Origin: Agrococcus sp. HG114
GTDB taxonomy: Bacteria; Actinomycetota; Actinomycetes; Actinomycetales; Microbacteriaceae
Assembly: GCF_024723325.1 (NCBI RefSeq)
Contig: NZ_JANQCH010000007.1
Span: forward strand, 1 to 38,233
Direction of reading: 5' to 3'
DNA: 38,233 nt
Part shown: positions 7,429-33,729 of the stretch, in pieces
Layout of the letters: each line of letters opens with the position of its first letter
Position numbering within the stretch: the first letter of the stretch is position 1
Made by a program: the position numbers and the translations under genes
The notes under the pieces: generated by a model
What the model saw: the letters and a program-made list of their open reading frames with translations, nothing else
Databases searched by the model: none
What the model was told of the DNA's origin: nothing

Positions 7429-7474
7429 TCCCGCCCGCCCCGCGGGCCCCGATCCCACCACCCGAGGAGCGTCC

Positions 7475-8554: not shown

Positions 8555-9219
8555 GCGCCGCGACCGTCGTCGCGATCGACGGGCCCGCGGGCAGCGGCAA
8601 GTCGTCGGTCGCGCGCGCCGTCGCCCGGGCGCTCGGCTTCCAGTTCCTCGACACGGGCGCCGCGTACCGCGCGCTCGCGTGGCTCGTGCTCGAGCAGGGC
8701 GGCGACACCGGCCACGAGCCCACCGTGATCGCGGCGCTCGACGCGCTCGGCACGCTCGAGCTCACGATCGACCCCACCGGCCAGCGCGTCTCGATCGCCG
8801 GGCACGACGTGACCGAGGCGATCCGCAGCGAGCGCATCTCCGCGGCCGTCTCGGGCGTCGCGCGCACCCTGCCGGCGCGCGAGGCCGTCAACGTGCGCTT
8901 CCGCGAGATCATCGCGGCCGCCGATCCCGGCATCGTCGCCGAGGGGCGCGACATCACGACCGTCGTCGCTCCTGACGCCGACGTGCGCGTGCTGCTGACC
9001 GCCGACGAGGCCGTGCGCATCCGCCGCCGCTTCGGCGACGTCGGCGGCGACGAGCACCAGGTGGGCGCGCGGCTCGCGGCCCGCGACGCCTCCGACGCGA
9101 AGGTCGTCGACTTCCTGACCGCCGCCGACGGCGTGACCGTGGTCGACTCCACCGACCTGACGTTCGACGAGACTGTCGAGGCGATCGTCCGCCTCGTGAG
9201 CGAGGAGACCCATGACTGA
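8551..9219 (+). CDS. cmk: Cytidylate kinase
   Basis: This kinase phosphorylates CMP and dCMP with ATP. The 222-residue product starts with [20 protein letters not shown], whose P-loop contains Lys17, followed by [12 protein letters not shown], which in the family binds the nucleotide base and phosphate. [24 protein letters not shown] and [10 protein letters not shown] (LID region) are also family marks. The ATG overlaps the tyrA stop, and the 3' end overlaps der by 8 bases. The tyrA-cmk-der order is typical of Gram-positive chromosomes. Confidence 0.95.
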
Positions 9220-12883: not shown

Positions 12884-12936
12884 GCTGCCGACGATGCTAC
12901 GCGCGTGCGCGGTGCTCGCGCTCCTTGCTACATTGG

Positions 12937-12953
12937 GAGGTAAGGCTTACCTC
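12937..12953. promoter_or_regulatory. DtxR/IdeR-type iron box
   Basis: GAGGTAAG-G-CTTACCTC is a perfect 8-bp inverted repeat around one base. The 19 bases 12936-12954 match 14 of 19 positions of the DtxR/IdeR consensus TTAGGTTAGGCTAACCTAA. It lies 41 bases before the siderophore-interacting gene and 53 bases from the divergent MFS start. Known family biology predicts repression when Fe(II) is plentiful. Confidence 0.75.
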
Positions 12954-12994
12954 AGTCCTCTGAGCGCGGCATGACGGATGCGTTGGGAGCAGCG

Positions 12995-13792
12995 ATGGCA
13001 GGACCGGAGCGCGTGGCCGCGGTCGCCCCGCGGTTCATCGAGCTCGAGGTGCTCGAGAGCCAGCAGCTGTCGCCGCACGTCCGGCGGGTCACGCTCGGCG
13101 GCGACGAGGTCTCGGCGATGACGCCGCAGGGCTACGACCAGTGGTTCCGGTTCTTCATGCGGCGCGACGGGCAGGACGAGCTGCGCGTCCCGACGAGCCC
13201 GGCGACCTGGTTCCCGCAGTACCTGGCGATGCGCGAGCAGCAGCGGCCCTGGGTGCGCAACTACACCGTGCGCGACTTCCGGCTCGAGGCGGGCGAGCTC
13301 GACATCGACTTCGTGTGCCACGAGGATCCCGGCCCGGGCGCCGCCTGGGCGATGGCGGCCCAGCGGGGCGAGCGCGCCGTGCTCCTCGACGAGGGGCTGC
13401 TCTACAACGACGACGGCCTCGAGGGCGCCGTGCTCGTCGTCGGCGACGAGTCAGCGCTGCCGGCGATCGCCGGGATCTGCGGCTCGCTCGACGAGGGCAG
13501 CCGGGGCGTCGCGGTGATCGAGGTCGGCCACCGCGACGACATCCAGCGCTTCGACCGCCCCGCGGGCGTCGACGTGCGCTGGGTCGAGCGCGGCGCCGCT
13601 CGCGCGGGCGACTCGGCGCTCGAGGAGCTCCGCGGGCTCTCGATCGACGCCGGGCTCGGGTACGCCTACTCCGCAGGGGAGCAGCGGCTCGCGACCGGCA
13701 CCCGGCGGCACCTGGTGCGCGAGCGCGCGGTCGACAAGAGCCGCATCACCTTCACCGGCTACTGGAAGCTCGGCGCCTCGTACGTGTCCTGA
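12995..13792 (+). CDS. Siderophore-interacting protein (FAD-binding ferric-siderophore reductase family)
   Basis: This 265-residue flavoprotein of the SIP/ViuB family probably reduces ferric siderophores in the cytoplasm to release iron. The FAD-binding domain has LSPHVRRVTLGGDEV and the RNYTVRDFR motif (R-x-Y-[ST]), followed by VCHEDPGPGAAWAMAAQRGE. The C-terminal domain starts VLVVGDESALPAIAGI and ends FTGYWKLG, both typical. I choose the ATG at 12995 because a GGGAG site (12985-12989) sits 5 bases upstream; an ATG at 12971 would add 8 residues. The upstream DtxR-type box fits iron-dependent control. Confidence 0.9.
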   Translation: MAGPERVAAVAPRFIELEVLESQQLSPHVRRVTLGGDEVSAMTPQGYDQWFRFFMRRDGQDELRVPTSPATWFPQYLAMREQQRPWVRNYTVRDFRLEAGELDIDFVCHEDPGPGAAWAMAAQRGERAVLLDEGLLYNDDGLEGAVLVVGDESALPAIAGICGSLDEGSRGVAVIEVGHRDDIQRFDRPAGVDVRWVERGAARAGDSALEELRGLSIDAGLGYAYSAGEQRLATGTRRHLVRERAVDKSRITFTGYWKLGASYVS

Positions 13793-18725: not shown

Positions 18726-18799
<74 letters not shown>

Positions 18800-18806
18800 C
18801 AGATGT

Positions 18807-18985: not shown

Positions 18986-19011
18986 GGAGCCTGCCCCGGT
19001 TTTCCGGACAC
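18986..19011 (+). repeat. Terminal inverted repeat of the IS3 element, OrfB side
   Basis: This arm begins GGAGCCTGCCCCGG and ends CCGGACAC. It is the inverted partner of 20206-20231 with mismatches only in the central six bases. A TG dinucleotide typical of IS3 ends occurs at 18985-18986 and again at 18992-18993. Confidence 0.75.
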
Positions 19012-19025
19012 GTTCTCTGAGGTGA

Positions 19026-19903
19026 TCATGCCGCGGCGAGGGTGGTCGTGTGAAGGGCTTCGAACTCGGCCGGGGCGAGGTTGCCGAGGCTGGTGTGGCG
19101 GCGGCGAGGGTTGTAGTAGCCCTCGATCCATTCGAAGATCGCGGACGCGAGCTCGGTGCGTGACCGCCAGGTGCGGCGGTCGAGAAGCTCGCGCTGCATG
19201 GTCGACCAGAACGACTCGATGAGTGCGTTGTCGACGCTGGACGCGACGCGGCCCATCGATCCGAGCAGCCCGGCTTGGCGGAGGCGGTGGCCGAAGACCC
19301 AGGACGTGTATTGGCTGCCGCGGTCGGAGTGGACGATCGTGCCGATGGGCTTGCGCTGCCAGCGGGCCATCTCGAGCGCGTCGACGACCAGCTCGGTGCG
19401 TATGCGATCGGAGATCGACCAGCCGACGACGCGGCGGCTGAACGCGCCGACGACCGCGGCGCAGTAGACCCAGCCGTCCGCGGCGCGATGCTGCGTGATG
19501 TCGGTGAACCAGACCCGGTCCGGCCGGTCGGCGACGAACCGGCGGCGCACGAGATCCTCGTGCGTCGCCGGTGCCGGCCGCCATCCCCGCCGCTTCCGTC
19601 GATGGCAGACGCCCGCCAGCCCATCGCCGCGCATCAGCCGCGCGATGCGCTTCCGCCCGACGCGGATGCCGAGCCCGAGCCGCAGCTCCGCGTGCACGCG
19701 CGGCGCCCCGTAGGTGCCGCGCGAGTCGAGGTGCGCGCGGCGGATCGCGCCCAGCAGCTCGGCATCGGCGACCGCCCTGGCCGACGCCGGCCTGGCGAGC
19801 CAGTCGTAGTAGCCGGACGTGGAGACCCTCAGCACCCGGCACGTCACCGCGACGGGGAACCCGTCACGGCGCAGCTCGTGGACGAGCCGGAAGCTTATTT
19901 TGG
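19026..19903 (-). CDS. IS3-family transposase OrfB (rve/DDE integrase core)
   Basis: OrfB carries the DDE integrase core of the IS3 transposase and is expected to be made as an OrfAB fusion by -1 frameshifting. From the shift site it reads KISFRLVHELRRDGFPVAVTCRVL (HTH_21 region), then RGTYGAPRVHAELR. The catalytic core has Asp in VWFTDITQH, Asp in IVHSDRGSQYTSWVF and Glu in DNALIESFWSTMQREL, followed by IEGYYNPRRRHTSLGNLAPAEFE. All three acidic residues are present, so this half looks active. The frame is open further upstream (to 20075), but that part only shadows OrfA. Confidence 0.92.
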
Positions 19904-20140
19904 GAGGACGTTCTCCCTCGCGAAGTAGGCGCTGGCGCGCTTGAGGATCTCGTTCTCCATCTCGAGCACCCGGTTCTTCCGCCGCAGCTCGATCAGCTCG
20001 CGCTTCTCGACTGACGTCAGCCCGTCTGCTCGGCCCGCGTCGACGTCGTCCTGCGCCATCCACCGGCGCAGGCACGACTCGCTGATCCCGAGATTCCTCG
20101 CGGTCGCGGCGACCGGCTCACCCTGCGCGACCAGATCCAA
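19895..20140 (-). CDS. IS3-family transposase OrfA (helix-turn-helix and leucine zipper)
   Basis: OrfA supplies DNA binding and dimerisation for the OrfAB transposase. The visible part contains a helix-turn-helix (EPVAATARNLGISESCLRRWM) and a leucine-zipper-like helix (KRELIELRRKNRVLEMENEILK), ending FARENVLPK. In the same frame the family-like sequence continues upstream (APKSPEFRRRALDLV) to a TGA at 20189-20191 without any ATG or GTG. Only the TTG at 20138-20140 can start it, and that would remove part of helix 1. An ATG in the next frame, with one extra G in the GGGAGGGAG run, would restore a normal N-terminus. A one-base insertion or sequencing error is therefore likely. Confidence 0.8.
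   Translation of the reverse strand: MDLVAQGEPVAATARNLGISESCLRRWMAQDDVDAGRADGLTSVEKRELIELRRKNRVLEMENEILKRASAYFARENVLPK
19898..19904 (-). other. Programmed -1 frameshift heptamer (C_CCA_AAA) at the OrfA stop
   Basis: On the minus strand OrfA ends CTC CCA AAA TAA. The heptamer CCCAAAA fits X_XXY_YYZ exactly. A one-base backward slip gives CCC AAA ATA AGC, which enters OrfB. The stop codon is directly next to the slip site, which should increase pausing. Confidence 0.8.
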
Positions 20141-20205
20141 CGCTCTCCGCCGGAACTCCGGCGACTTCGGTGCTCCCTCCCGAGACGATCATCGCCTCAG
20201 CTCAG

Positions 20206-20231
20206 GTGTCCGCGAAAGCGGGGCAGGCTCC
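20206..20231 (-). repeat. Terminal inverted repeat of the IS3 element, OrfA side
   Basis: On the plus strand this arm reads GTGTCCGCGAAAG followed by CGGGGCAGGCTCC, the inverted partner of 18986-19011. Confidence 0.75.
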
Positions 20232-20553: not shown

Positions 20554-20652
20554 ATGAGACGAAGAGCGGCACGATCACCCCGCCGCGACGGCCACCAGGC
20601 CGCCGCGGCTTCGTTGCGCTCGCGTTGCTCTGTTCAGAGGGGACGCCGATGA
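20554..20652 (+). CDS. Possible 32-residue leader peptide overlapping the helicase start
   Basis: ATG at 20554 opens a 32-codon frame (MRRRAARSPRRDGHQ...) whose TGA (20650-20652) overlaps the helicase ATG (20649-20651). AAAGGAG lies upstream with a rather long 12-base spacing. The peptide is Arg-rich with no recognisable domain. The overlap would suit translational coupling, but in GC-rich DNA such short frames arise by chance. Confidence 0.2.
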   Translation: MRRRAARSPRRDGHQAAAASLRSRCSVQRGRR

Positions 20653-23543
20653 CCTCCCCACTCACCGACTACCAGGCGAAGTACTACGCGCACGAGCTGC
20701 AGCGTAGCTACGCGAACGATCACGTCGGCAAGCTCGCCGGCCTGCTGTTTGACGCCCAAGTGGAGCCGAAGCCGCACCAGATCGACGCCGCCCTGTTCGC
20801 GCTGCAGACACCGTTCCTGCCGGGCGTGATCCTCGCTGATGAGGTCGGCCTCGGTAAGACGATTGAGGCGGGCATCGTCATTTCGCAGTACTGGGCGGAA
20901 CGCCGCCGCAGCATTCTGATCGTTGCCCCGTCGAGCCTTCGGCAGCAGTGGCAGCAGGAACTCCACGAGAAGTTCCTGATCCCGTCCGCCATCCTCGACC
21001 CAAAGTCGAAGGACTCGCTGCTTGATGCTGCGGGTGGTCGTTCGGCGCAGGTGCTGATCTGCTCCTATGAGTTCGCGCTGCGGCACGAGACCTCACTGCT
21101 CAAGGCGTGGGATCTGGTGGTTGCGGACGAGGCACACCGACTGCGCAATTACTGGACAGGCAAGACAAAGGCGGCCGAGGCAGTCGCGCATATCGTTGGC
21201 GGTGCACACAAGACCGTCCTGCTGACCGCCACGCCACTGCAGAACAAGCTCGAGGAGCTGTATGGGCTGGTGTCGATCTTCGACCCTGGCTACTTCTACT
21301 CGCTCGATGCCTTCCGGGAGCGGTACGTCAAGAATCGAGACCTCGGCGGTGACGACGACCTGGTGGAGCGTGTCGCCACCGTCTCGAAGCGCACGCTGCG
21401 GCGCGATGCCGACAAGTACATCCACTTCACCAAGCGCCTGCCGCTGACGGTTGAGTTCACCCCGTCGCCCGACGAGGCGCGGCTCTACGACCTGGTGAAC
21501 GACTACCTGCAGCGCGACGAGCTGTTCGCCTTCGCCGGGAGTCAGCGTCACCTCTCTGCCCTGATCATCCGCAAGCGTCTCGGTTCGTCGACCTACGCGG
21601 TCGCGAGCACGCTGGAGAATATCGCCAACCGTCTGGCCGATGAGGTTGCAGCCGGGCAGCGTCGCGACGGCCGCGGTGGTCTGGTCGCAGCAGACTTTGC
21701 CGTCGACGACGAGATCACCAGCGAGGAGCTGGAGGAGGCCGAAGAGATCAGCGGACGCACGGAAGCCCGCTCCTCTGTGCCGCTGGACGAGTCGTTGCTG
21801 GAGGCGATGCCTGCCGAGGTTGCGGAGCTGCGCGAGTACGCGGCTCTGGCTCGTTCGATCACCGAGAACCAGAAGGCGGTCAAGCTCGGAGAGGCGCTCG
21901 ACCTCGGCTTCGAGCGCCTGCGCGAGCTGGGCGCTCCCGAGAAAGCCATCATCTTCACGGACTCGACGAAGACGCAGGAGTACATCGCGCGCTCACTGCG
22001 GGAGGCTGGTCGCGGCGAGGGCCTCGTTCTTTTCAACGGGGCGAACAACGGGCCGGAGCAGACCGCGATCTACCAGGCGTGGTTGGAGAAGAACAGAGAC
22101 GGCGACCTGATCACCGGCATTGCTGCTGTGGATCGGCGCAAAGCGCTCGTGGACTACTTCCGCACCGAGGGCAAGATCATGATCGCGACCGAGGCTGCGG
22201 CAGAGGGCATCAACCTGCAGTTCTGCTCGATGCTCGTCAACTACGACCTGCCCTGGAACCCGCAGCGGGTTGAGCAGCGCATCGGCCGTGTGCACCGCTT
22301 CGGGCAGAAGCACAACGTCGTCGTCGTGAACTTCTCGAACAAGGGCAACATCGCCGAGCAGCGCATCCTGGAGCTGCTGACGAACAAGTTCCAACTGTTC
22401 TCCAGCGTCTTTGGCGCAAGCGACGAGGTGCTCGGCGCGATCGAGGACGGACTGGACTTCGAGAAGACGATCAGCGACATCCTCACCCGCTGCAGAACCG
22501 CCGACGAGCTGGACTCTGCGTTCAGGGAGCTGGAGGCGCAGTACGCGGGCGAGATCTCGCGCGAGATGGCCAGCGCAAAGGCGAAGGTCTTCGACAACCT
22601 CGACCCCCACGTCCAGGATCGCCTCAAGGCCTATGACACGCAGTCCGGCGAGGTGCTCAACAAGTTCGAGCGCCTGCTGCTCGCGGTAACCCGGCACGAA
22701 CTCGACCAGCACGCCACCTTCGAGGGCGACGGGCGCACCTTCGTGTTGAACCAGTCGCCCGTGAAGGACGCGCCGACCGGGCGCTACTTCTTCAAGTCCC
22801 AGCTGCTGGAGAACGCCCACCAGTACCGCTACGCAAGCCCCCTCGCTCAGCACGTCGTCGAGACCTCGAAGACTCACGACACCCCCGCACGCGAGCTGAC
22901 GTTCTCGCTCGGCCAGTCGGAGCGTGTGAGCAGCGCGATTCGTGCGCTGGAGGGCACCGGCGGCGAACTCACCGTCAGCGTTGCGACCTTCCGGATGAGG
23001 GCGCGCGACGAGGACGTCTCCGAGTCCTACATGCTCGCCGGCGCCATGACCGATGACGGCCGGTGGCTTGATGAAGAGTACGTCGCAGACATCCTTGACC
23101 TCGCCTGCATCGTCGTTGGGACACGGCCGGTGGCGATCGATGAGGGCGGCTTCACGCCGCATCTGGACACTCGACGGGCTGAGTTGGAGAAGGAAGTCCA
23201 GGGCCGTAACTCTCGCTACTACGACCAGCAGGAGGAACTCCTCTACCGCAACCAGCAGGATCGTAAGGCCGAGCACGAGGGCAAGATCCGCGAGTACCGC
23301 GCCAAGGAGAAGGAAGCCCGCAAGCTCGCCCGGCAGGCCGACGATCCGATGGAGCAACTGCGGCTCAAGAAGGAGGCCCGCAAGTGGGAGCAGCGTGCCG
23401 AGGAGGCCGACGAGCACTTCCGAGACACACGCAAGAAACTCCGGGCCGAGGCCGATAAGTACCTCGAGCTGATCGAGCAGTCGCTCCAGGGAACCCAGGA
23501 TATCGAGCATCTGTTCACAATTCGCTGGCGCATAGCCACATAG
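20649..23543 (+). CDS. SNF2/RapA-type superfamily 2 helicase (defence island)
   Basis: This 964-residue ATP-driven DNA translocase is of the SNF2/RapA group. Motif I is ADEVGLGKTIEAG (Lys70), motif II is VVADEAHRLRN (Asp160, Glu161), motif III is LLTATPLQNKLEELYGL, and the C-terminal RecA domain has IATEAAAEGINLQFCSMLVNYDLPWNPQ with VEQRIGRVHRFGQ (Arg544). After about residue 850 a long charged coiled coil (KAEHEGKIREYRAKEKEARKL...) is present. The ATG at 20649 follows AGAGGGG at good spacing. It lies 60 bases upstream of the methyltransferase gene and reads in the same direction, so it is probably an accessory to the type III restriction system. By analogy to DISARM DrmD it may translocate on invading DNA, but no DrmA, DrmB or DrmC genes are nearby. 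GC is about 60%. Confidence 0.9.
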   Translation: MTSPLTDYQAKYYAHELQRSYANDHVGKLAGLLFDAQVEPKPHQIDAALFALQTPFLPGVILADEVGLGKTIEAGIVISQYWAERRRSILIVAPSSLRQQWQQELHEKFLIPSAILDPKSKDSLLDAAGGRSAQVLICSYEFALRHETSLLKAWDLVVADEAHRLRNYWTGKTKAAEAVAHIVGGAHKTVLLTATPLQNKLEELYGLVSIFDPGYFYSLDAFRERYVKNRDLGGDDDLVERVATVSKRTLRRDADKYIHFTKRLPLTVEFTPSPDEARLYDLVNDYLQRDELFAFAGSQRHLSALIIRKRLGSSTYAVASTLENIANRLADEVAAGQRRDGRGGLVAADFAVDDEITSEELEEAEEISGRTEARSSVPLDESLLEAMPAEVAELREYAALARSITENQKAVKLGEALDLGFERLRELGAPEKAIIFTDSTKTQEYIARSLREAGRGEGLVLFNGANNGPEQTAIYQAWLEKNRDGDLITGIAAVDRRKALVDYFRTEGKIMIATEAAAEGINLQFCSMLVNYDLPWNPQRVEQRIGRVHRFGQKHNVVVVNFSNKGNIAEQRILELLTNKFQLFSSVFGASDEVLGAIEDGLDFEKTISDILTRCRTADELDSAFRELEAQYAGEISREMASAKAKVFDNLDPHVQDRLKAYDTQSGEVLNKFERLLLAVTRHELDQHATFEGDGRTFVLNQSPVKDAPTGRYFFKSQLLENAHQYRYASPLAQHVVETSKTHDTPARELTFSLGQSERVSSAIRALEGTGGELTVSVATFRMRARDEDVSESYMLAGAMTDDGRWLDEEYVADILDLACIVVGTRPVAIDEGGFTPHLDTRRAELEKEVQGRNSRYYDQQEELLYRNQQDRKAEHEGKIREYRAKEKEARKLARQADDPMEQLRLKKEARKWEQRAEEADEHFRDTRKKLRAEADKYLELIEQSLQGTQDIEHLFTIRWRIAT

Positions 23544-23553
23544 ACCACGGGTC

Positions 23554-23583
23554 TTTCACAAACCCGACGCAAATTGTTAAAAT
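23554..23583 (+). promoter_or_regulatory. Candidate internal promoter ahead of mod
   Basis: TTTCAC (23554-23559) and TAAAAT (23578-23583, 5 of 6 to TATAAT) are 18 bases apart, in an A/T-rich pocket between helicase and mod. It could let the methyltransferase be made before the rest of the system. Confidence 0.45.
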
Positions 23584-23603
23584 CATGAGAGAGAATCACC
23601 CGA

Positions 23604-25433
23604 ATGACTGACGAGATCTACGAAACACCATCCACTACACCGAACTTCCAGACCGAGCTGGCAGCGCAGCTTGCCGATCTGATTCCCGAGGCCATCGCCG
23701 ACGGCAAGGTGGATGTCGAGAAGCTCGAGGAACTGCTCGACGGTGACGTGGCCGACAGCAGCGAACGGTTCGGACTCTTCTGGCCCGGCAAGAAGCGAGC
23801 CCTCCGTGCGGCGCAGGAGCCGACCACAGCAACGCTGAAGCCCGACTTCGAGAACTCGAAGGACTGGGACACGACGCAGAACGTCTTCATCGAGGGCGAC
23901 AACCTTGAAGTGCTCAAGATCCTGCAGAAGCACTACCACGCGAAGATCAAGATGATCTACATCGACCCTCCGTACAACACCGGCAAAGACTTCGTCTACC
24001 CGGACAACTACAAGGAGGGCCTCGACACCTACCTCGAGTGGACGCGCCAGGTCAACGAGGAGGGCAAGAAGGTCACGACGAACGCCGAGACCGAAGGCCG
24101 CTATCACTCCAACTGGCTCAACATGATGTATCCGCGCCTCAAGCTCGCGCGCAACCTGCTCGCCGATGACGGGGTAATCTTCGTTTCGATAGATGACAAT
24201 GAAGCGGCGCACTTGCGCAGACTATTGGATGAGGTTTTCGGTGAGGGAAACTTCGTTGCTGCTATCAACCACAAGTCGCGCGGATCCGTTTCGAATGACA
24301 AGATCATCTCTCCAAACCACAATACGATTTTCGTTTACGCGCGCCGTTTTGAGGATATCTATTCAAATCGCACGTCGATTGGACTCGATCCAGACTTGTC
24401 TGGATTCGAGACATCGGACGAGCGTGGTGCCTACAAATTAGTTCCGGTCGATGGGCCGGGTGGGGCTCGAAAAGGGAACCCATACTATGAGTTCTTGGGA
24501 GTCGAGGGATACTTCCGATACTCGCGCGAAACTATGCAAGAACTCTACGACGCAGGCGAGATAGTCAAGCGAGGCAACACGCTTCAGCGAAAATACTATC
24601 GAGAGAAGGCGGAGGCGAGTCGGAAGACCGACACCACATGGTGGGACGATGCCGGATATACGTCCAGCGCCACCTCGGCATTGAAGTCACTCATGGGCGG
24701 TGCCTATTTCGATAGCCCGAAGCCGATCAGTTTGATCGGTCGTATGCTCACCCAGTTTTCGGACAAGGACTCCTTGGTTCTGGACTTCTTCGCGGGATCA
24801 GGATCGACTGGCCACGCTGTAATGAAGCAGAATGCGCTCGACGGCGGTTCCAGACGGTTCGTTCTTGTGCAACTTCCAGAGCCCACCCCCGAGACTTCTG
24901 AAGCACGCAAAGCAGGTTTCGCAACAATTTCAGATGTGGCTCGAAGGCGCCTGGACCTCGCGGGCGATCAGATCAAAGCCGAGGTCACGGCTCAGTCGGT
25001 GGACTGCGGCTTCCGCTCCTACAAACTCTCGGACACAAACTTCGCCAAGTGGCGCGTTTCGAGTGATGTTGAGGAGGACGCACTGCAGGAGCACCTGCTC
25101 AGCCTGCGTGACAGTGCTACAGACGACGCGACTGCCGATGACCTGCTCACTGAGATCCTGCTGAAGCAGGGTTACTCGCTGACCGAGGCGGTTTCGCCTG
25201 CCGAGATTGATGGCCTTGACATTCGGCTTGTGCGGGATCGCGACGGTGACATCGCTGTCTTGGCGTACCTGAACGAGCACGTCAAGCCGACGCTCGAGCA
25301 GCTTCGTGCACTCGTTGACGAGTCTCCGACGCGGATCATCGTGCTCGAGGACGCGTTCCAGGGCGATGACGAACTCAAGACCAACCTGGCCCAGCTCGCA
25401 AAGAGCAAGGGCATTGAGCTCTGGGCGGCCTGA
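23604..25433 (+). CDS. mod: Type III-like DNA adenine methyltransferase (Mod)
   Basis: This is a 609-residue beta-class N6-adenine methyltransferase. The catalytic motif IV comes first (MIYIDPPYNTGKDF, Asp121 to Tyr124) and the AdoMet-binding motif I later (LVLDFFAGSGSTGHAV, Asp394 to Gly400), which defines the beta class used by EcoP15I-type Mod proteins. The target recognition domain must lie between, at about residues 195-390. That stretch is visibly poorer in GC and uses rare codons such as ATA and TTA, unlike the ends of the same gene. The C-terminal domain (after about 430) probably contacts Res. The stop is 2 bases before the res ATG. It should protect self DNA and supply sequence specificity to Res. 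Confidence 0.93.
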   Translation: MTDEIYETPSTTPNFQTELAAQLADLIPEAIADGKVDVEKLEELLDGDVADSSERFGLFWPGKKRALRAAQEPTTATLKPDFENSKDWDTTQNVFIEGDNLEVLKILQKHYHAKIKMIYIDPPYNTGKDFVYPDNYKEGLDTYLEWTRQVNEEGKKVTTNAETEGRYHSNWLNMMYPRLKLARNLLADDGVIFVSIDDNEAAHLRRLLDEVFGEGNFVAAINHKSRGSVSNDKIISPNHNTIFVYARRFEDIYSNRTSIGLDPDLSGFETSDERGAYKLVPVDGPGGARKGNPYYEFLGVEGYFRYSRETMQELYDAGEIVKRGNTLQRKYYREKAEASRKTDTTWWDDAGYTSSATSALKSLMGGAYFDSPKPISLIGRMLTQFSDKDSLVLDFFAGSGSTGHAVMKQNALDGGSRRFVLVQLPEPTPETSEARKAGFATISDVARRRLDLAGDQIKAEVTAQSVDCGFRSYKLSDTNFAKWRVSSDVEEDALQEHLLSLRDSATDDATADDLLTEILLKQGYSLTEAVSPAEIDGLDIRLVRDRDGDIAVLAYLNEHVKPTLEQLRALVDESPTRIIVLEDAFQGDDELKTNLAQLAKSKGIELWAA

Positions 25434-25435
25434 GT

Positions 25436-28432
25436 ATGAAAAACGGCACAGCGAGCGGTTCAGGATTCCAGTTCGACGCCAGTCAGCCGTATCAGCTGGA
25501 TGCGATCGCGTCCGTGGTTGACCTGGTCGACGGGCAGCCGAAGGATGCGGAGAAGCTGGTCACGACCCTGCGTGGTGCGGCGGCGCTGCCCGACTCAGAT
25601 CAGTCGGTGCTTGACATCGACCTGACGCAGGAGGTCGGCGCAGTCGGCAACAGCCTGGTGCTCGATCGTGACCTGATCCTCGCGAACCTGCAGCGTGTGC
25701 AGGATCGCAACGGCCTTGAGGTTGCGTCGGCGCTTGCGGGCGACGCGCTCGACTTCGATATCGAGATGGAGACCGGTACGGGTAAGACCTACGTCTACCT
25801 GCGCACGATCTTCGATCTGGCCGTGCGGTACAACTTCACGAAGTTCGTGATCCTCGTGCCGAGCGTCGCGATTCGCGAGGGTGTCAGCACGAGCATCCGG
25901 CTCATGCGTGAGCACTTCGAGACCCTCTATAAGCCGCAGGGCATCACCTTCGATGCCTCCGTCTATAGCGGCAAGAGCGCCGAGGAGGTGCAGTCGTTCG
26001 CGACCTCGACCAACGTGCAGATCCTGATCATGACGATCGACTCGATCCGTGGCAATGCGAACACGCGCATCATCCACCAGACGCGCGACAAGCTGAACGG
26101 CCTGCGCCCGATCGACTATCTGAAGGCAACTCACCCCGTTGTCATCATGGACGAGCCGCAGAACATGGAGTCGCAGCTGTCGCAGTCGGCGGTCGGTGAA
26201 CTCGCCCCGGTCTTCACCCTGCGCTACAGCGCCACGCACAAGAAGCAGCGCAACGTCGTCTACCGGCTCGACCCGGTCGACGCCCACGATCTGGGTTTGG
26301 TGAAGCAGATCGTCGTGGCTGAGGTGGCCCAGCAGGGCGCGGACGCGACGCCGTATATCAAGCTGGTTGAGGTGCGGCGTGAGCCGTCGTGGTCGGCCCG
26401 GCTGGAGCTTTCCTGCCGCAAAGCCGATGGCTCGCTTGAGCGCCGGGTTGTGAGTGCGAAGCAGCATCAGGAGCTGTCGGATGCGCGCCTGACGAACAAT
26501 CCGATCTACGAGGGCTGGCGCATCAACGAGATGAGCATCGAGCCCGCCTACGTCGACCTCACCACCCACGGGTTCCTGTACGAGGGCGAGAGCACCGGTG
26601 CCTCGGCCGGCGCGATCTACAAGGAGATGATCCGTGAGACCGTTCGCGAGCACCTGCGCAAGGAATCGATGCTCCGGGCCAAGTGCATCAAGGTGCTCAG
26701 CCTCTTCTTCGTCGACAAGGTTGCCAGCTACCTGGGCGACGGCACGAACAACGATGATGCGAGCGGCGACTTCGTGCAGTGGTTCGACGAGGTGTTCGTC
26801 GAGGAGCGCGCGAAGTCTGCGCGCTACCAGGAGCTGCTGCCGCAGGCGCCGAGCGAACTTCGCCGGGCGTACTTCTCCCAGATCAAGCGCGGCAAGACAA
26901 CCACCTTCCAGGACTCGTCCGGCACCACCAAGGCCGATGACGACGCCTACGAACTGATCATGCAGCAGAAGGAACGCCTGCTCGACGAGAACGAGCCCGT
27001 GCGCTTCATCTTCAGCCACTCTGCCCTGCGCGAGGGCTGGGACAACCCGAACGTCTTCCAGATCTGCACCCTGCGCGAGATGGGTGCCGAGACCGAGCGG
27101 CGCCAGACCCTCGGCCGTGGACTGCGCCTCCCCGTCGCCAAGACCGCTGACGGCTACACCCGCGTGGCTGACCGGGGCGTCGCGACGCTGACGGTCGTGG
27201 CGAACGAGTCGTACACGAAGTTCGCGGACGCGCTCCAGCGTGAGTACAAGGACGCCGGTGTCGAGATCGGCCGGGTGCGCCGGGCCGAGTTCTCGAAGAT
27301 CCCGCTGCAGGACGAGAACGGTGCGCTCACCGATGACCAGTTCGGCTACCAGCGATCCGTCCTCGTGTGGGAGCACCTCAAGGACAAGGGCTTCCTCGAC
27401 AAGGACGGCGCGGTCACCTCGAAGTTTCAGCCGAACCAGCTCGGCTTCGACCTCGGCCTGCCCGTCGACTTCGTCTGGGCTGAGCCGATCATCATCGAGC
27501 TGGTTGAACGCGCAAACATCGGCAAGTACGTCAAGCCGGTCAGCAAGCGTCAGCCGCGCGTGCTTAACAAGCAGCTCTACTCGACACCGGAGTTTGAGGA
27601 GTTCTGGGAGACGATCAGCCAGAAGACCACCTACCGCGTCAAGGTCGAGCGTAAGGATCTGATCGAGAACGCCATCCGGGCGATCCGTGAAGCGCCGAAG
27701 ATCGACGCGCTGCGTATCCAGGTCACCCGCGCCGGAGTCAAGGTGCTGAGAGGCGGAGCCAAGGGTGAAGAACTCGGCACCCGCTCGGCCGACCTCAAGG
27801 GCAGCTACGACCTGCCCGACATCATCACGGAACTCCAGGAGGCGACCTCCCTCACTCGCAAGACCATCGTCGACATCCTGATCGGCAGCGAGCGGCTGGG
27901 AGAGTTCATCGGCAACCCGAACGACTTCATCGCGATGACCAAACGCGCGCTGCAGAGCGAGTTGGCAAAGATCGTGGTCGAGGGCATCCAATACGAGCGG
28001 ATCGCTGGCTCGGTCTACGAGCTTCGCGAGCTGCAGCGGGACGGCGAGGAGGAGAAGGAGCGCTTCCTCGACCAGATGTACAAGGTGCAGCACACCCAGA
28101 AGACCGACTTCGACTACGTCGTCTTCGATTCCGATGTCGAGCGCCAATTCGCGGAGCTGCTCGACTCTCGCGAGGACATCAAGCTGTTCATGAAGCTGCC
28201 CGCGAAGTTCAAGATCGACACCCCAGTCGGCCCGTACAACCCCGACTGGGCGATCATCAAGCAGGAGGACGGCGAAGACCGGATCTACATGATCCGCGAG
28301 ACGAAGAGCGCGCTCGACGACTCGAAGCTCCGCCCAACAGAACTCGCCAAGATCAAGTCCGCCAAACGCCACTTCGAAGCCATCGGCATTGACGACTACG
28401 CGCGGGCGGCACCGGGGGCGTGGAGGCTATGA
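25436..28432 (+). CDS. res: Type III restriction enzyme Res subunit (helicase-endonuclease)
   Basis: Res is a 998-residue superfamily 2 helicase-nuclease that cleaves DNA together with Mod. Motif I is METGTGKTYVYLRT (Lys117). Motif II is VVIMDEPQNME (Asp239, Glu240); this DEPQ form is typical of type III Res. Motif III is LRYSATHKKQ and motif VI QTLGRGLRLPV. The C-terminal PD-(D/E)xK nuclease is intact: Asp937 in YNPDWAII and Glu955/Lys957 in IRETKSAL. The start lies 2 bases after the mod stop and the end overlaps the next gene (ATGA), so mod, res and the OLD gene form one operon. Length matches EcoP15I Res (about 970). The restriction activity should be functional. Confidence 0.95.
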   Translation: MKNGTASGSGFQFDASQPYQLDAIASVVDLVDGQPKDAEKLVTTLRGAAALPDSDQSVLDIDLTQEVGAVGNSLVLDRDLILANLQRVQDRNGLEVASALAGDALDFDIEMETGTGKTYVYLRTIFDLAVRYNFTKFVILVPSVAIREGVSTSIRLMREHFETLYKPQGITFDASVYSGKSAEEVQSFATSTNVQILIMTIDSIRGNANTRIIHQTRDKLNGLRPIDYLKATHPVVIMDEPQNMESQLSQSAVGELAPVFTLRYSATHKKQRNVVYRLDPVDAHDLGLVKQIVVAEVAQQGADATPYIKLVEVRREPSWSARLELSCRKADGSLERRVVSAKQHQELSDARLTNNPIYEGWRINEMSIEPAYVDLTTHGFLYEGESTGASAGAIYKEMIRETVREHLRKESMLRAKCIKVLSLFFVDKVASYLGDGTNNDDASGDFVQWFDEVFVEERAKSARYQELLPQAPSELRRAYFSQIKRGKTTTFQDSSGTTKADDDAYELIMQQKERLLDENEPVRFIFSHSALREGWDNPNVFQICTLREMGAETERRQTLGRGLRLPVAKTADGYTRVADRGVATLTVVANESYTKFADALQREYKDAGVEIGRVRRAEFSKIPLQDENGALTDDQFGYQRSVLVWEHLKDKGFLDKDGAVTSKFQPNQLGFDLGLPVDFVWAEPIIIELVERANIGKYVKPVSKRQPRVLNKQLYSTPEFEEFWETISQKTTYRVKVERKDLIENAIRAIREAPKIDALRIQVTRAGVKVLRGGAKGEELGTRSADLKGSYDLPDIITELQEATSLTRKTIVDILIGSERLGEFIGNPNDFIAMTKRALQSELAKIVVEGIQYERIAGSVYELRELQRDGEEEKERFLDQMYKVQHTQKTDFDYVVFDSDVERQFAELLDSREDIKLFMKLPAKFKIDTPVGPYNPDWAIIKQEDGEDRIYMIRETKSALDDSKLRPTELAKIKSAKRHFEAIGIDDYARAAPGAWRL

Positions 28433-30408
28433 GGCTCATCTCTGCTCACGTCCAGGGCTACGGCCGGATCGTCGATTCCAAGATCAACTTGGATGCGAAG
28501 GTCATCGCTATCGTGGGGCCGAATGAGGCAGGCAAGACCACCCTGCTCAAGGCGCTCGCTCACGTCGATGGCGAGACCGCCGTGCCGGTACCTCAGCGTT
28601 CGCGAGCTACCGAAGTAACCGATCAGACCCGTGTGACGACCTTCGACTACGTCGTGGAGGAGGAAGATTGCACTGCCCTTGCGGATCTCGACTTGCACGA
28701 GCAGCCGACTCGCGCCCACGTTGCACGCTCCGCTTCCGGAGACAAGCTCATCGTCGACCTGCTTCCAGCGCCTCGAAAGTCCGTGCGGCCACTCCAAGAT
28801 GCACTCGACACTCTTAAGGCAGCAGCCGTCAAAGAAGACCTTGATGACTGGATCGATCCGAACACTACGTATGCCGATCCGGGGTCTGACGATCCGCATG
28901 ATTACCGGGCGGAGCTCAGCTCCGTGGTCGAGGCTGTCGAGGCTGCCGTCGCGGAGGTCGGAAGTGATCTTCCTGCCGAAGCAGTTCAGACTGCGCAATC
29001 CCTCCGGGGTGTCACGCTTGCTGACGACGTCGATGCGGAGTCGCTGCGTGCGGCCTTCGATGCGATCATCGCGTGGTCTGAGCGAGAAGACCCCGCTCCA
29101 GCCGCTCGCGACCGCATCTGGAGGCGCACGCCGGACTTCATCCTCTTCGACGAGGCCGATCGCTCATTTCAATCCGCGTACACGTTCGACGACGCGCTGA
29201 TCAACGACACCCCAGTCGCGCTTGCGAACCTTGCGGGCACAGCGTCACTCGACCTCGCAGAGCTTCTCCAGTTCGTTCGAACAGGAGACATTGCGCGTCG
29301 ACGAACGGCGATCGTCCAGGCCAACAGGCGGATGGACGCCATCTTCGACGAAGCGCGGAAACAGTCGAAGCTGGCTGTCCACTTTGAGCTTGACGGTGAT
29401 CAGCTTCGCATCGAGCTCATGGAGGACGGCGACAACATCACAGTCTTCGACGAGCGCAGTGCCGGCCTCCGAATGTTCGTCGCACTGATCGCCTTCCTGA
29501 AGGTTCATGGTTCGGAGCGTGCGCCGATCTTGCTCATCGACGAGGCAGAGAACCATCTCCACATCGATGCGCAAGCGGATCTGGTCAATATGTTCGTCAC
29601 GCAGGAGCACGCGATCAAGGTCATCTACACGACCCACAGTCCTGCGTGCCTTCCGCCCGACCTTGGCACTGGGATTCGTGTTGTCGTACCGCGTCACGAC
29701 AACTTCCAAGTGAGCGACGTGAAGAACAGCTTCTGGCAAGGTGCAGCAGGCTACTCGCCTCTGATGCTTGCTATGGGTGCAGCGGCCGCTGCCTTCACAC
29801 CCGCTCGCTACGTCGTCCTGGCCGAGGGGGCCACCGAGATGATCCTTCTACCTACGCTGATACGTTCCGCAACTGGACAGACGGATCTGCCTTATCAAGT
29901 GGCCCCAGGACTGTCCGAAGTCCCGAACGACTTCCTGCCAAAACTCGACCTCGAGGCTGCCCATGTCGCATACCTCGTCGACGGTGATGATGGCGGGGTG
30001 AAGCTGAAGACTGCCCTCACAGATGCAAGCGTGCCAGAGAGCCTGATCACTGAGCTGGGATTGCCGGGGATCGAGAACGCCCTCGAGCCAGACGCCTACA
30101 GGGCTGCGATCTCGGCGCTGCTTCCTGAGTGCAATCCAGGAGTCACCGCGAGCGATCTTCCAGAAGTGCCACCGATCGCAGCAGAGACGGGCGCTTCGGC
30201 TGCGAAGTGGATGTACGACTGGATCAAGAGCGTCGGGCTAAAGGCTCCGTCTAAGGTGGCGGTCGCGAATTGGTTGGTCGAGAATGACCGATCAACGCCG
30301 AGCGCTGAAGGGTCGGCGGTGTTGGTGTCGCTCCACGCGAACCTGGTGCGGGCGCTCGGGATAGAAAACGACGAGAGTCTGGCGAAGCTAGGAAAGGCAA
30401 GTCGATAG
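28429..30408 (+). CDS. OLD-family ATPase with TOPRIM nuclease domain
   Basis: This 659-residue protein combines an ABC/SMC-type ATPase and a TOPRIM nuclease, as in the phage P2 OLD protein and the GajA subunit of Gabija. Walker A is IVGPNEAGKTTLLKAL (Lys36). The signature-like ERSAGLRMFVALIAFL precedes Walker B ILLIDEAENHLHIDAQ (Asp371, Glu372), and the H-loop is VIYTTHSPACLPPD. The TOPRIM domain has Glu466 in VVLAEGATEMILLP and the acidic cluster Asp518-x-Asp520 in YLVDGDDGGV. ATG 28429 is chosen for its overlap with the res stop; a GTG at 28420 is possible. No UvrD-like GajB or AriB gene is adjacent, so it is neither standard Gabija nor PARIS. GC is about 57%. Confidence 0.9.
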   Translation: MRLISAHVQGYGRIVDSKINLDAKVIAIVGPNEAGKTTLLKALAHVDGETAVPVPQRSRATEVTDQTRVTTFDYVVEEEDCTALADLDLHEQPTRAHVARSASGDKLIVDLLPAPRKSVRPLQDALDTLKAAAVKEDLDDWIDPNTTYADPGSDDPHDYRAELSSVVEAVEAAVAEVGSDLPAEAVQTAQSLRGVTLADDVDAESLRAAFDAIIAWSEREDPAPAARDRIWRRTPDFILFDEADRSFQSAYTFDDALINDTPVALANLAGTASLDLAELLQFVRTGDIARRRTAIVQANRRMDAIFDEARKQSKLAVHFELDGDQLRIELMEDGDNITVFDERSAGLRMFVALIAFLKVHGSERAPILLIDEAENHLHIDAQADLVNMFVTQEHAIKVIYTTHSPACLPPDLGTGIRVVVPRHDNFQVSDVKNSFWQGAAGYSPLMLAMGAAAAAFTPARYVVLAEGATEMILLPTLIRSATGQTDLPYQVAPGLSEVPNDFLPKLDLEAAHVAYLVDGDDGGVKLKTALTDASVPESLITELGLPGIENALEPDAYRAAISALLPECNPGVTASDLPEVPPIAAETGASAAKWMYDWIKSVGLKAPSKVAVANWLVENDRSTPSAEGSAVLVSLHANLVRALGIENDESLAKLGKASR

Positions 30409-30410
30409 TC

Positions 30411-33251
30411 ATGGCAAACGAGTCCACTAGAGCCATCGAGTTGGCTGACAATGGCGGTCACTTCTATCGTGCTGACTTCCAAGTCCATACCCCGCGTGAC
30501 ACCCAGTGGGACGGGGATCGCCCCACCGCTTCTGAGCGCGACACGTGGGCTGCGACATTCGTTTCTGCTGCGCGTTCGCAGGGTCTCAACGCGGTTGCCA
30601 TCTCTGATCACCACGACTTCGCGTTCTTCCCGTTTATCAAGCGCGCTGCAGCCGCAGAGCGGTTAGCGGACGGCACACCGGTGCCTGTTCGCGAGCAACT
30701 GACAGTGTTTCCTGCGCTCGAGCTGACGTTGAGCGTTCCGTGTCAGGCGATTCTCATTCTCGACGCAGACTTCCCAGAAGGCCGCCTCAATGACGTCTTG
30801 AAGGCCCTTCATTTTGACCCAATTGATGCAGCCCTCGATGTTCTCCCTCAGACAACGGTCTTGCCGGACTCAGGCGATCTCAACGACATCCACGCGAAGC
30901 TTGACAAGAATGATTGGCTCCGAGGGAGGTATATCCTCCTTCCGAACGTCACGCCGAACGGTCATAAGACTCTGTTGCGGGAATCCTTCCAGGCCAAGTA
31001 TCGGGACATGGTTGCTGTCGGGGGATACCTCGACAAGCCCATCACGGAGCTGGACCGCCAGAAGTACGCCGGCGAGAAGCGGATTCTCGATGGCGGCGAC
31101 GGCAACTGGGGATCGAAGCGTCTTGCATTGTTCCAGACTTCCGACGCGCGCAAAGCCGACTTCTCCACGCTTGGTGAGCACGCGACATGGGTGAAGTGGG
31201 CGAAGCCAACTGCTGAGGCAATCCGTCAGGCATGTCTGGCGCAGGAGTCTCGAATCTCCCACAGCTCTCCGGCGATACCGAACGTCTGGGTTTCGCGCGT
31301 TGTGGTGTCGAACAGCAAGTTCATGGGTCGCGTAGACGTCGCACTCAACCCGCAATACACAGCTCTCATAGGTGGACGAGGCACCGGCAAATCGACGGTG
31401 CTTGACTACCTCCGTTGGGCCTTGTGCGACCAGCCTGCTCGGGCAACCGAGGATGACGAGGTTGCAGATCCCCGAGTGCGTCAGCGCAAACTCATCGACG
31501 CGACGCTCAAGCCTTACGACGCGCACGTAGAAGTGCACTGCGTAATCAACGGGATCGCCCACGTTGTGCGCAGACACGCTGGCGACGGGACGATTCAACT
31601 CAAGGTAGGTGGCGGTCAGTTCGAGAAGGTGACTGAAGCCGCCATCCAGAGTGTCCTTCCAATCCAGGCATACAGTCAGAAGCAACTGAGTAGCGTCTCC
31701 ATACGAGTCGATGAACTGTTGCGATTCGTCACATCGCCGATCCAGCGGCAGCTCGAAGAGATCGACCGCAAACGACAAGAAGTGGCCGGCCGACTTCGCG
31801 AGAACTACGGCACCCTCCAGCGGTATCGGAACCTGTCTGCCGAGATTGAGCGTGGCGATTTGCGCATCCGGTCGTGGGCCGAACAGGCGCAGTCGCTGCG
31901 CGATGGCCTTGCGGGGATTTCTGAGGAGGATCGAAAAGTCCTCGACGGGAAGGCCGGGCATGACGATTTGCGCTCAGCCCAGACCCGCTGGCTCCGGCAC
32001 ATCGAGGTTACACAGGAGAATCTCGCTTCTCTGGTTGAATCGCTGGACTCATCGCTAGAGGATCTTGAACTCCCAGCCTCCGCTCCAGCCAGCCTCACTG
32101 CAGAAGCCAACGCATTGCTTACTACGGCCCGTGATGCACTGGTCGGTCTGCGATCGGCGGTCAGTAGGCTGGAAACTGACTTCAATGCGCTCTCTGCGGA
32201 AGGTGGCGCGGTCGCTACGACCGCTGAAACCCTGTCGGTCAAGCTGACCGAATACGACGGGGCGTATCGGGCCGTGAAGGAACGGTCTTCGGCGCACGAA
32301 GCCAAGCTGGCAGAACTCGCCAGCCTAGAGGAGCAGCAACGCAAGGCTCGCGAGCTTGTGCAGCGTCAGCGAACCGATCGCGACGCGCTCGGCAAGCCGG
32401 GCGACAAGCACAAGGAGTTCCGCGCCGAGCTGACCGCCGCAAGGAAAGAACGGACGAGCGCACTGCGAGCTGAGTGCGAAGCGCTCGCAGCCTCGTCGGA
32501 CGGAATGATCCGTGCGACGTTGTCGACGGACCGTGGATTCGATGGCGCGCAGATCAAGTTCAAGGCGCTGATCGCGGGCTCAAACGTACGGGCCAGCAAG
32601 GTCGACGCCTTCTTCGAAGAGCTCGCGAAGGAGTCGGATTCCGCAGCGACCTGGGAGACTGTGCTCGAAGAGCTCGAGTCGCTAACCCTACTCGAACCGG
32701 ATGCCGATATCAGCTCGGAACAAACTCCGGTGCTGACCAGACTAGGCCTCACAGTCGCCGACCAGAAGAGAATCGTCCCGAAGCTCACGCCCGATGGCTG
32801 GCTCGATCTGTCGCTCGCAGAGTTGTCCGACTTCCCCGAGTTCGAGTACCGGGCAAAGGAGAGCGAGTACATCCCGTTCGACTCTGCTTCAGCCGGACAG
32901 CAGGCCTCCGCTCTGCTCGGCACGCTGCTTTCTCAGAGTGGTACACCGCTGATCATCGATCAGCCGGAGGATGATCTCGATAGTGACACCGTGCAGCAGA
33001 TCGTCTCCAAGATCTGGCGATCTAAGAATCGGCGACAACTGATCTTCTCCAGCCACAACGCGAACCTGGTCGTCAACGGGGATGCCGACTTGGTGCTGGT
33101 ATGCGCCTACCTGACCGCGGGGGACCAGTCGGCGGGGCACATCAAGGAGCAGGGCGCCATAGATGTTGCCGCAGTGCGCGACGAGATTACGTCAGTAATG
33201 GAGGGTGGAGAGCGGGCCTTCCGCCTCCGCAAAGAGAAGTACGGCTTCTGA
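30411..33251 (+). CDS. PHP-domain plus SMC-like ATPase (TrlF-type)
   Basis: This 946-residue fusion starts with a PHP-type metallo-phosphoesterase domain: FQVHTPRD (His26), AISDHHDF (Asp66, His67, His68) and FPALELTL (Glu104). The first His of the usual HxH is Gln. An SMC/RecF-like ATPase follows, with Walker A IGGRGTGKSTVLDYL (Lys327), a coiled coil of about 270 residues (roughly 430-700), signature SAGQQASALLGTLL, Walker B PLIIDQPEDDLDSDTV (Asp850) and H-loop LIFSSHNANLVV. From memory, such proteins are annotated as TrlF-family AAA-like ATPases and occur near restriction systems. It starts 2 bases after the OLD stop and closes the operon. It may be an ATP-gated nuclease or a sensor of modified or broken DNA; the function is inferred. 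Confidence 0.88.
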   Translation: MANESTRAIELADNGGHFYRADFQVHTPRDTQWDGDRPTASERDTWAATFVSAARSQGLNAVAISDHHDFAFFPFIKRAAAAERLADGTPVPVREQLTVFPALELTLSVPCQAILILDADFPEGRLNDVLKALHFDPIDAALDVLPQTTVLPDSGDLNDIHAKLDKNDWLRGRYILLPNVTPNGHKTLLRESFQAKYRDMVAVGGYLDKPITELDRQKYAGEKRILDGGDGNWGSKRLALFQTSDARKADFSTLGEHATWVKWAKPTAEAIRQACLAQESRISHSSPAIPNVWVSRVVVSNSKFMGRVDVALNPQYTALIGGRGTGKSTVLDYLRWALCDQPARATEDDEVADPRVRQRKLIDATLKPYDAHVEVHCVINGIAHVVRRHAGDGTIQLKVGGGQFEKVTEAAIQSVLPIQAYSQKQLSSVSIRVDELLRFVTSPIQRQLEEIDRKRQEVAGRLRENYGTLQRYRNLSAEIERGDLRIRSWAEQAQSLRDGLAGISEEDRKVLDGKAGHDDLRSAQTRWLRHIEVTQENLASLVESLDSSLEDLELPASAPASLTAEANALLTTARDALVGLRSAVSRLETDFNALSAEGGAVATTAETLSVKLTEYDGAYRAVKERSSAHEAKLAELASLEEQQRKARELVQRQRTDRDALGKPGDKHKEFRAELTAARKERTSALRAECEALAASSDGMIRATLSTDRGFDGAQIKFKALIAGSNVRASKVDAFFEELAKESDSAATWETVLEELESLTLLEPDADISSEQTPVLTRLGLTVADQKRIVPKLTPDGWLDLSLAELSDFPEFEYRAKESEYIPFDSASAGQQASALLGTLLSQSGTPLIIDQPEDDLDSDTVQQIVSKIWRSKNRRQLIFSSHNANLVVNGDADLVLVCAYLTAGDQSAGHIKEQGAIDVAAVRDEITSVMEGGERAFRLRKEKYGF

Positions 33252-33272: not shown

Positions 33273-33729
33273 TTACTCAGGCCGCCCGGTCGCTGGACGG
33301 ATCTCGACCCCTACCTTCATGATGGCCACCCGCATGGTTTCCTGGTTCACCTTGAGCGCTTCGGCGACCTGCGAGAGTGAGAGGCCGGATTCGTATAGGC
33401 GGGCAGCTTCACTCACCTGGTCTGCTGTAATCGACTGGCGACGGACGATGACGTTATTGGCGCGGAGGATGCCGATGATCGTGGACTTGGCGACGGCGTA
33501 GTCCTTCGCCAAGGCTGTCGTCGTGACCTGCCGAGTACCGAGCGACCACCTGCGCGCGGGCTTCGTTGTTCAGGCGCTTCCACTTGCGGCGAGGAGCCGT
33601 GACAGTGCGAGAGGTTTGAGCGTCGTCCGGCAAGGTCTCCGCGCCTGTCGTTCGAGAGCTGTCGTGAGAACCCCTGATCCGGCGCAGATTCTCGGTTTCT
33701 ACCCCTGTTGGGTATGGAACAGAGGTCAA
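33273..33729 (-). pseudogene. Frameshifted helix-turn-helix (resolvase-associated type) gene
   Basis: Two overlapping minus-strand frames join into one protein. The first (33729 down to about 33530) reads WKRLNNEARAQVVARYSAG. After a one-base shift the sequence continues TTTALAKDYAVAKSTIIGIL, then ITADQVSEAARLYESGLSLSQVAEAL, ending TGRPE at 33273. Both halves are helix-turn-helix units of the kind found in short actinobacterial proteins next to serine resolvases. The joint lies at about 33531, where removing one base from GCAGGTCACGACG restores the frame. This is a broken gene or a sequencing error. It marks the right edge of the accessory region. Confidence 0.7.

Follow-up and report, generated by a model that had tools for sequence, protein, structure and literature searches.

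Do five closely packed genes of Agrococcus sp. HG114 form one fixed five-part machine, or a core system that carries exchangeable genes? They lie in a stretch of 38,233 nucleotides (contig NZ_JANQCH010000007.1, positions 1 to 38,233, hereafter the window) and encode a SNF2 helicase, the Mod and Res proteins of a type III restriction-modification (R-M) system, an OLD-family ATPase and a TrlF-family ATPase. We favour, with moderate confidence, the second answer, namely a modular defence operon composed of a SNF2-type III core and swappable add-ons behind res. What we observe is an operon with a module boundary at the res/OLD junction, unlike divergence on the two sides of that boundary, and independent recurrence of the core, of OLD and of TrlF. 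An open reading frame (ORF) check of the window confirmed the five large genes on one strand (+) and the spacings of 60, 2, -4 and 2 bases given in an initial annotation made from the letters alone, whose view of a defence-type operon was also supported. The genes and their boundary are as follows:

20649-23543, + strand: helicase gene with an ATG start (an in-frame TTG lies at 20625)
23604-25433, + strand: mod, type III Mod, a methyltransferase with a target-recognition region
25436-28432, + strand: res, type III Res with a helicase motor and an endonuclease domain
28429-28432, + strand: overlap of the res stop and the OLD start (ATGA), the module boundary
28429-30408, + strand: OLD gene, an OLD-family ABC-ATPase with a probable C-terminal TOPRIM region
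30411-33251, + strand: TrlF gene ('PHP-SMC' in the initial annotation), an altered PHP-like N-terminus followed by an SMC/Rad50-like ATPase

Profile matches, all well beyond what chance would give, upheld the proposed identities of the helicase, Mod, Res and OLD, and placed the 'PHP-SMC' protein in the TrlF family. The helicase matched SNF2-rel (3.9e-31) and DrmD models (PADLOC PDLC02619, 591 bits; NCBIfam DrmD_b, 592 bits, not reaching the cut-off of 950) and carries the motifs DEVGLGKT (K70) and DEAH; its likeness to DrmD makes DNA tracking or remodelling its probable task in the core. Mod matched PF01555 (4.7e-33) and PADLOC MTase_III (596 bits, 1.9e-179), and Res matched PF19778 (7.6e-34) and PADLOC REase_III (882 bits, 1.5e-265), the PADLOC matches being near full length. 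As in known type III R-M, Mod has N6/N4 methylase motifs (DPPY, FFAGSGST) and an exchangeable target-recognition region, and Res combines its motor and endonuclease domains (DEPQ, NPDW with D937, ETK with E955 and K957); the window differs from such systems by a SNF2 helicase gene before the pair and two ATPase genes after it. Type III enzymes depend on ATP and cleave at two unmethylated sites of inverse orientation. The OLD protein has the ABC-ATPase core of its family (AAA_21, 2.9e-17; AAA_15 also matched) with the motifs GPNEAGKT, LLIDEAE, EGATE (E466) and DGDDGG (D518, D520). Ratios of nonsynonymous to synonymous differences (pN/pS) were low in the helicase (0.11-0.14, three comparisons), res (0.115-0.224, three comparisons), OLD (0.21-0.31, five comparisons, with pS near saturation) and mod.

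We searched 349 genomes of the family of the window (Microbacteriaceae) for Res with an E-value threshold of 1e-100, yielding matches in 23 genomes, nine of them close (own included) and 14 near 35%, and fetched the neighbourhoods of 20 of the 22 other Res-bearing genomes. The close group comprises eight other loci (59-92% identity), of which six have the helicase upstream of mod (L054, L055, L056, L058, L059 and L060); the contig of L057 starts at mod, so that the helicase position is cut off, and L061 gave no helicase match. At the thresholds used, matches to the OLD or TrlF of the window were found at none of these eight loci. In the 35% group, L067 has a helicase and a DUF4391 gene ahead of mod-res, as confirmed by Pfam, and similar genes were seen by eye in several others. 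The Res search against plasmids matched 297 records, eight of which were read: L132 has window-related helicase, mod and res genes together, L133 has the order helicase-mod-DUF262-res, its helicase, mod and res being related to those of the window, in four (L137, L138, L140 and L142) the helicase is more distant and extra genes separate it from mod (DUF4391 in three), and L139 and L141 have no helicase. In L055, a transposase-like ORF (~12544-13596) similar to the insertion sequence (IS) region of the window lies between the helicase and mod, and only the 3' part of this mod matches the mod of the window.

Homology to relatives of the core begins at 20647-20671, around the start of the helicase gene (L012, L054-L056 and L058-L060) and stops at 28432 (L054), 28435 (L055), 28437 (L056), 28428 (L058) and 28424 (L059), or earlier in L057 (28400), L060 (28401) and L061 (28261). 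Homology to OLD loci begins at 28429 (L013, L014 and L016) or 28430 (L015) in the four that were compared, placing both edges within ~10 bases of the res/OLD junction in the best-aligned relatives. A Mycobacterium locus from another family (L012) has the same first four genes, followed by a TrlF stub and a TIR gene; homology to it extends to 30486, inside TrlF, and the stub of 29 codons (79%) gives way to an ORF that encodes a TIR domain (PF13676, 6.2e-25). The recurrence of the five-gene order in unrelated taxa, which the initial annotation had proposed to look for, was found in L012 for the first four genes, with TrlF as a stub only. Compared with L012, pS is 0.37-0.59 in sub-windows of the helicase and 0.35-0.56 in those of res, and rises at the junction to 0.63-0.76 in those of OLD, with pN/pS of 0.12 (helicase), 0.12 (res), 0.21 (OLD) and 0.37 (mod); the middle of mod (~24072-25281) is exchanged relative to L012 (pS 0.65-0.77, pN up to 0.49). 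Either the five-gene order predates both copies and recombination later swapped OLD-TrlF, or this site received an OLD-TrlF cassette on two occasions; under both histories the TrlF of L012 was cut short. Upstream of the L012 operon, a pair of genes appeared TniB/TniQ-like by eye only, an identity that we rejected, Pfam giving no family for the second.

OLD was compared across 17 loci, namely the window, nine from GTDB contigs and seven from two genome samples (296 and 394 genomes), after dropping three weak matches. It is coupled to an R-M operon in five of them, of type III in the window, L012 and L018 and of type I in L016 and L017, in the last via an intervening gene 66% like the YgjP gene that precedes OLD in L014. 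The initial annotation had counted it against its own reading if OLD relatives rarely occurred beside helicase-mod-res, and this came out half true, with the core at 2/17 loci and any R-M operon at 5/17. OLD lies 0.4-0.5 kb behind hsdR in L009, where the HsdR-like protein (6528-10037) has a C-terminal Schlafen AlbA_2 domain. Other nearby genes include a cytosine-methyltransferase-like gene 3' of OLD (L011), a methylase-like gene ~3 kb upstream (L010) and a weak Mod-like match ~4 kb upstream (L027). In a tree of 16 OLD rows, the window and L012 group together (88/91) within an eight-member clade (100/99) drawn from hosts of both type I and type III. The gene after OLD varies from TrlF in the window, or a TrlF stub and then a TIR gene in L012, to an AAA_13/PDC-S06 gene (L013), a PDC-S53 helicase (L016) and, after the type III mod-res-OLD of L018, a CBASS-type cyclase whose start overlaps the OLD end, with a Cap15-like two-transmembrane (2TM) effector (11923-13421). 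OLD matches were also found in 20 plasmid records, all below 60% identity and one with at least 80% coverage, and at eight loci on viral contigs (24-40% identity).

The last protein of the operon scored 515 bits with NCBIfam TrlF NF045780 (cut-off 350), and a Ppl identity was rejected (175 bits, NCBIfam cut-off 1000). Motifs that had been called intact are so in the helicase, Mod, Res, OLD and the SMC Walker A/B of TrlF (GGRGTGKST, IDQPEDDL), but the PHP metal residues are not: its PHP-like part reads DFQVHTP where several relatives have DLHVHTP, with the first His replaced by Gln, and a late motif reads TSDAR, compared with SDAH in L091, L093 and L097. Residues H26, D66, H67, E104 and D245 are present, among which we presume a metal-binding role. 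The altered residues do not exclude TrlF membership, because other members (L078 and L096) also lack the canonical ones. Pfam PHP gave no match for the window TrlF at E<=1, which is not decisive since it also missed L091, which has DLHVHTP, and found L096, which has neither His. The change looks like a conserved alteration rather than decay, because the signature DxQ(V/I)H(T/S)PRD is common to all eight rows of a clade comprising the window, L098, L127-L130, L135 and L143.

We searched 296 genomes of the phylum of the window (Actinomycetota) with NF045780 (E<=1e-60), yielding matches in 15, of which 12 were above the cut-off (own included). A methylase or R-M gene, checked by Pfam, is the direct same-strand neighbour of TrlF in six of 13 other neighbourhoods (L091, L092, L093, L095, L098 and L101); TrlF follows mod-res in L098 and hsdR in L101, precedes mod-res in L092 and is enclosed by mod and res in L093. 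A truncated DUF1156-like gene was seen by eye two genes from TrlF in L094, and no same-strand methylase or R-M neighbour was identified in L078, L096, L097, L099, L100 and L102. A chance methylase neighbour would be unusual, as PF01555 matches the genome of the window once, in this mod, and N6_Mtase gave two low-scoring matches at other places. On plasmids, the TrlF search matched 1094 records, in seven of which the match covers at least 80% of the protein. Among these seven, Res lies directly before TrlF in L128, L129 and L136, and a Mrr/nSTAND3 gene precedes it in L127; no res or other R-M gene precedes TrlF in L130 and L135, nor any R-M gene the partial TrlF match of L131. On the Novosphingobium PP1Y plasmid (L134, 4052-9802), one open frame of 1916 residues spans both Res and TrlF, possibly through a sequencing error or decay, because the adjoining mod looks split. 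TrlF matches on viral contigs fall at eight loci (21-41%), including L143 with a methylase gene upstream (PF01555). By eye, an IMG/VR contig (L146, 4007-14851) has TrlF and an AlbA_2-like neighbour between hsdM/hsdS-like and hsdR-like genes, and AlbA_2-like partners occur beside some other TrlF loci.

We then defined the slot behind res as a called gene at most 100 bases behind it on the same strand, and found it occupied in ten of 20 related type III loci and empty in the other ten. The occupants were OLD with TOPRIM (L055 and L063), AAA_13 proteins (L056, L060 and L066), GmrSD_N (L072) and fragments of OLD/AAA_13-type ATPases (L064, weak, and L073). The slot genes of L059 (7000-8643, without a PADLOC family either) and L069 (11221-12036) have no Pfam family and are candidates for unknown effectors. 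PADLOC PDC models (PDC-S06 and PDC-S53) match several of the genes found next to OLD or 3' of res.

OLD and TrlF are likeliest to be backup effectors, as the initial annotation had supposed and as analogy with other systems makes most plausible. In the mechanism that we propose, Mod would mark and Res would cut DNA, preceded in the operon by the DrmD-like SNF2 helicase, and the position behind res would be a recurring acceptor slot that exchanges ATP-driven nuclease-type genes and other effectors. Here it would have received the OLD-family ATPase, a probable nuclease with a start codon that overlaps the stop codon of res, and then the TrlF-family ATPase. Made together with Res, both would form a second line of defence, triggered when phage DNA escapes restriction or when an anti-restriction protein blocks it, and would then cut nucleic acid of the phage or the host; such action has been reported for PARIS and PrrC, which occur next to restriction systems. 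A bolder version, which we advance tentatively and think rather improbable, takes the 3' ends of type III res genes and of certain hsdR genes as dedicated docking slots where translational coupling would meter ATP-driven nucleases (OLD, AAA_13 and TrlF) to Res as interchangeable fail-safes sensing blocked or failed restriction; the window would then hold two stacked plug-ins, and the DFQVHTPRD clade of TrlF would be a separate type of restriction-associated effector, found on one plasmid in a single frame with Res.

One integrated machine, with the helicase, Mod, Res, OLD and TrlF acting jointly on the same DNA, was what the initial annotation had drawn from the tight coupling, and the spacings, the traces of the five-gene order kept in another family (L012) and the Res-TrlF frame of L134 all agree with it. 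It seems unlikely, however, as the eight close Res loci carry the core without matches to OLD or TrlF, the add-ons occur behind or beside other R-M types, other genes stand behind res elsewhere, divergence rises at the res/OLD junction, and in L012 a TIR gene replaces most of TrlF with the other four genes open. A degraded or divergent DISARM-like system is highly improbable: DrmD models are top-scoring for the helicase (591-592 bits) but the NCBIfam score stays below its cut-off, neither DrmB nor DrmC was among the best 25 matches per protein, and for Mod and Res the top-scoring models are those of ordinary type III systems. We rejected DISARM membership on the same grounds, the DrmA match among those listed being the helicase gene itself and weaker than DrmD; it is possible that the helicase mechanism is common with DISARM. 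Hitchhiking deserves more attention, though we consider it doubtful: OLD and TrlF would be self-sufficient, use the res transcript and neither sense nor depend on R-M. This is in line with the varied cargo of the slot, including the CBASS-type pair after OLD in L018, and with the OLD loci L015, L019, L020, L028 and L030 and the TrlF loci L078, L096, L099 and L135, which by eye, from called or annotated genes, have no R-M neighbours. Against it stand the overlap or near-overlap behind res or hsdR that recurs across different hosts, the three plasmid TrlF relatives directly behind res, and the frequency of OLD/AAA_13 types in the slot: an OLD/AAA_13/TrlF-kind ATPase or fragment occupies 7/20 slots vs 3/300 of the remaining genes in these stretches (Fisher P 2.8e-10), a statistic that is inflated and partly circular, as five of the eight query proteins are themselves slot genes.

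That circularity also tells against the modular operon that we prefer; Pfam independently backs six of the seven slot ATPases, and L064 only weakly. Several other observations tell against it too. OLD and TrlF can stand alone, because many of their loci have no adjoining R-M gene: by eye, 11 of the 17 OLD loci have none directly upstream (L011 and L029 among them sit at contig ends), and TrlF lacks one in L078, L096, L099, L102, L131 and L135. Since the window and L012 share both add-ons, OLD and TrlF appear to have stayed or travelled together in this lineage. The predicted roles of all five genes rest on sequence and analogy, and, with its PHP residues altered, TrlF is of uncertain activity. 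The TOPRIM region that had been assigned to OLD is supported by E466, D518, D520 and E549, invariant in 13 rows, and by a fold search, but the Pfam TOPRIM model (OLD-like_TOPRIM) gave no match. The predicted OLD model found GajA (8x5i) and the OLD nuclease (6p74) as best matches with TM 0.28-0.31 on the query, and is itself only moderate (pLDDT 70, pTM 0.49), scoring low across the ATPase core.

A 2024 preprint by Payne et al. reportedly deals with defence genes that sit inside other defence systems. No PADLOC match marked all five genes among the best 25 model matches per protein, with no system-level classifier run, in agreement with the initial annotation, which pointed to no named system of this composition. 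We rejected membership in Gabija, as no GajB UvrD-like helicase is among the five genes, in PARIS, as the ATPase and TOPRIM-like residues are in one OLD protein with no separate AriB gene among the five, and in the TRL operon, as the partners TrlG (AlbA_2) and TrlR are not among them.

DarTG2 is described as embedded between hsdS and hsdR (PMC12255303), which resembles the window in that other defence genes are lodged in an R-M operon; the window differs in being of type III, in using the 3' end of res rather than the inside of hsd, and in its OLD and TrlF cargo. OLD-TOPRIM and other nucleases at BREX loci are described as backup effectors, and PARIS as sensing the anti-restriction protein Ocr (PMC12839542). 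OLD-ABC/TOPRIM modules attached to methylation-based defence, with a proposed backup role, are common to BREX, PARIS or Gabija and, with a TOPRIM region that is only probable, the window, whose host is instead a type III R-M system with a SNF2 helicase and whose operon has no AriB or GajB partner. The PrrC and RloC anticodon nucleases are linked to R-M, PrrC being activated by a phage anti-restriction factor (PMC2610378, PMC3874168); an ATPase-type effector, putative in the window, is linked to R-M in both cases, whereas neither OLD nor TrlF showed an anticodon-nuclease domain, and AAA_13 proteins occur in some related slots. The TRL operon of Photorhabdus (trlF, trlG, trlR) was studied for temperature-restricted growth, and that study saw no trlF mutations (PMC7554251); it has the name TrlF in common with the NCBIfam family, a likeness by name and not by comparison with the Photorhabdus protein, and the window has no AlbA_2 (TrlG) partner.

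That R-M and BREX loci can harbour further defence genes is known; new here are the SNF2-type III core with a slot at the 3' end of res, the two stacked add-ons, and a TrlF clade whose PHP residues are altered. Neither the gene set nor the slot behind type III res was described in the titles or displayed abstracts of the open-licence papers that searches of PubMed Central (PMC) listed, which does not establish absence from print. If the modular reading is true, a positional rule, to inspect the gene directly behind res, would expose candidate anti-phage effectors, swappable fail-safes of restriction systems against anti-restriction proteins would become testable, and the altered-PHP clade of TrlF would gain a setting for testing its function.

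The operon lies in a variable region whose left edge is a tRNA gene:

18726-18800, + strand: tRNA-Pro (GGG), detected with ARAGORN

Beside this tRNA, G+C content drops from ~0.72 to ~0.55-0.65 across 20-33.8 kb. A left-flank query matched in 21/21 genomes of the genus, in some over the tRNA alone, and four relatives that were read (among L123-L126) have different genes 3' of the same tRNA-Pro, which resembles an integration hotspot of the genus (window 18726-18800, L123-L126). L126 has a GajA-like/UvrD-like (Gabija-like) pair, assigned by eye, flanked by two 46-bp copies of the tRNA end; a search of the window for such a second tRNA-Pro 3' end gave short chance matches only. By eye, L124 has an integrase-like gene near the tRNA-Pro, and the window has an IS3-type transposase region with matching ends (~18990-20226, - strand) adjoining the operon upstream. 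Two short helix-turn-helix-looking ORFs (33273-33729, - strand, by eye) lie 3' of TrlF, the first of which has 28-31% matches in L018.

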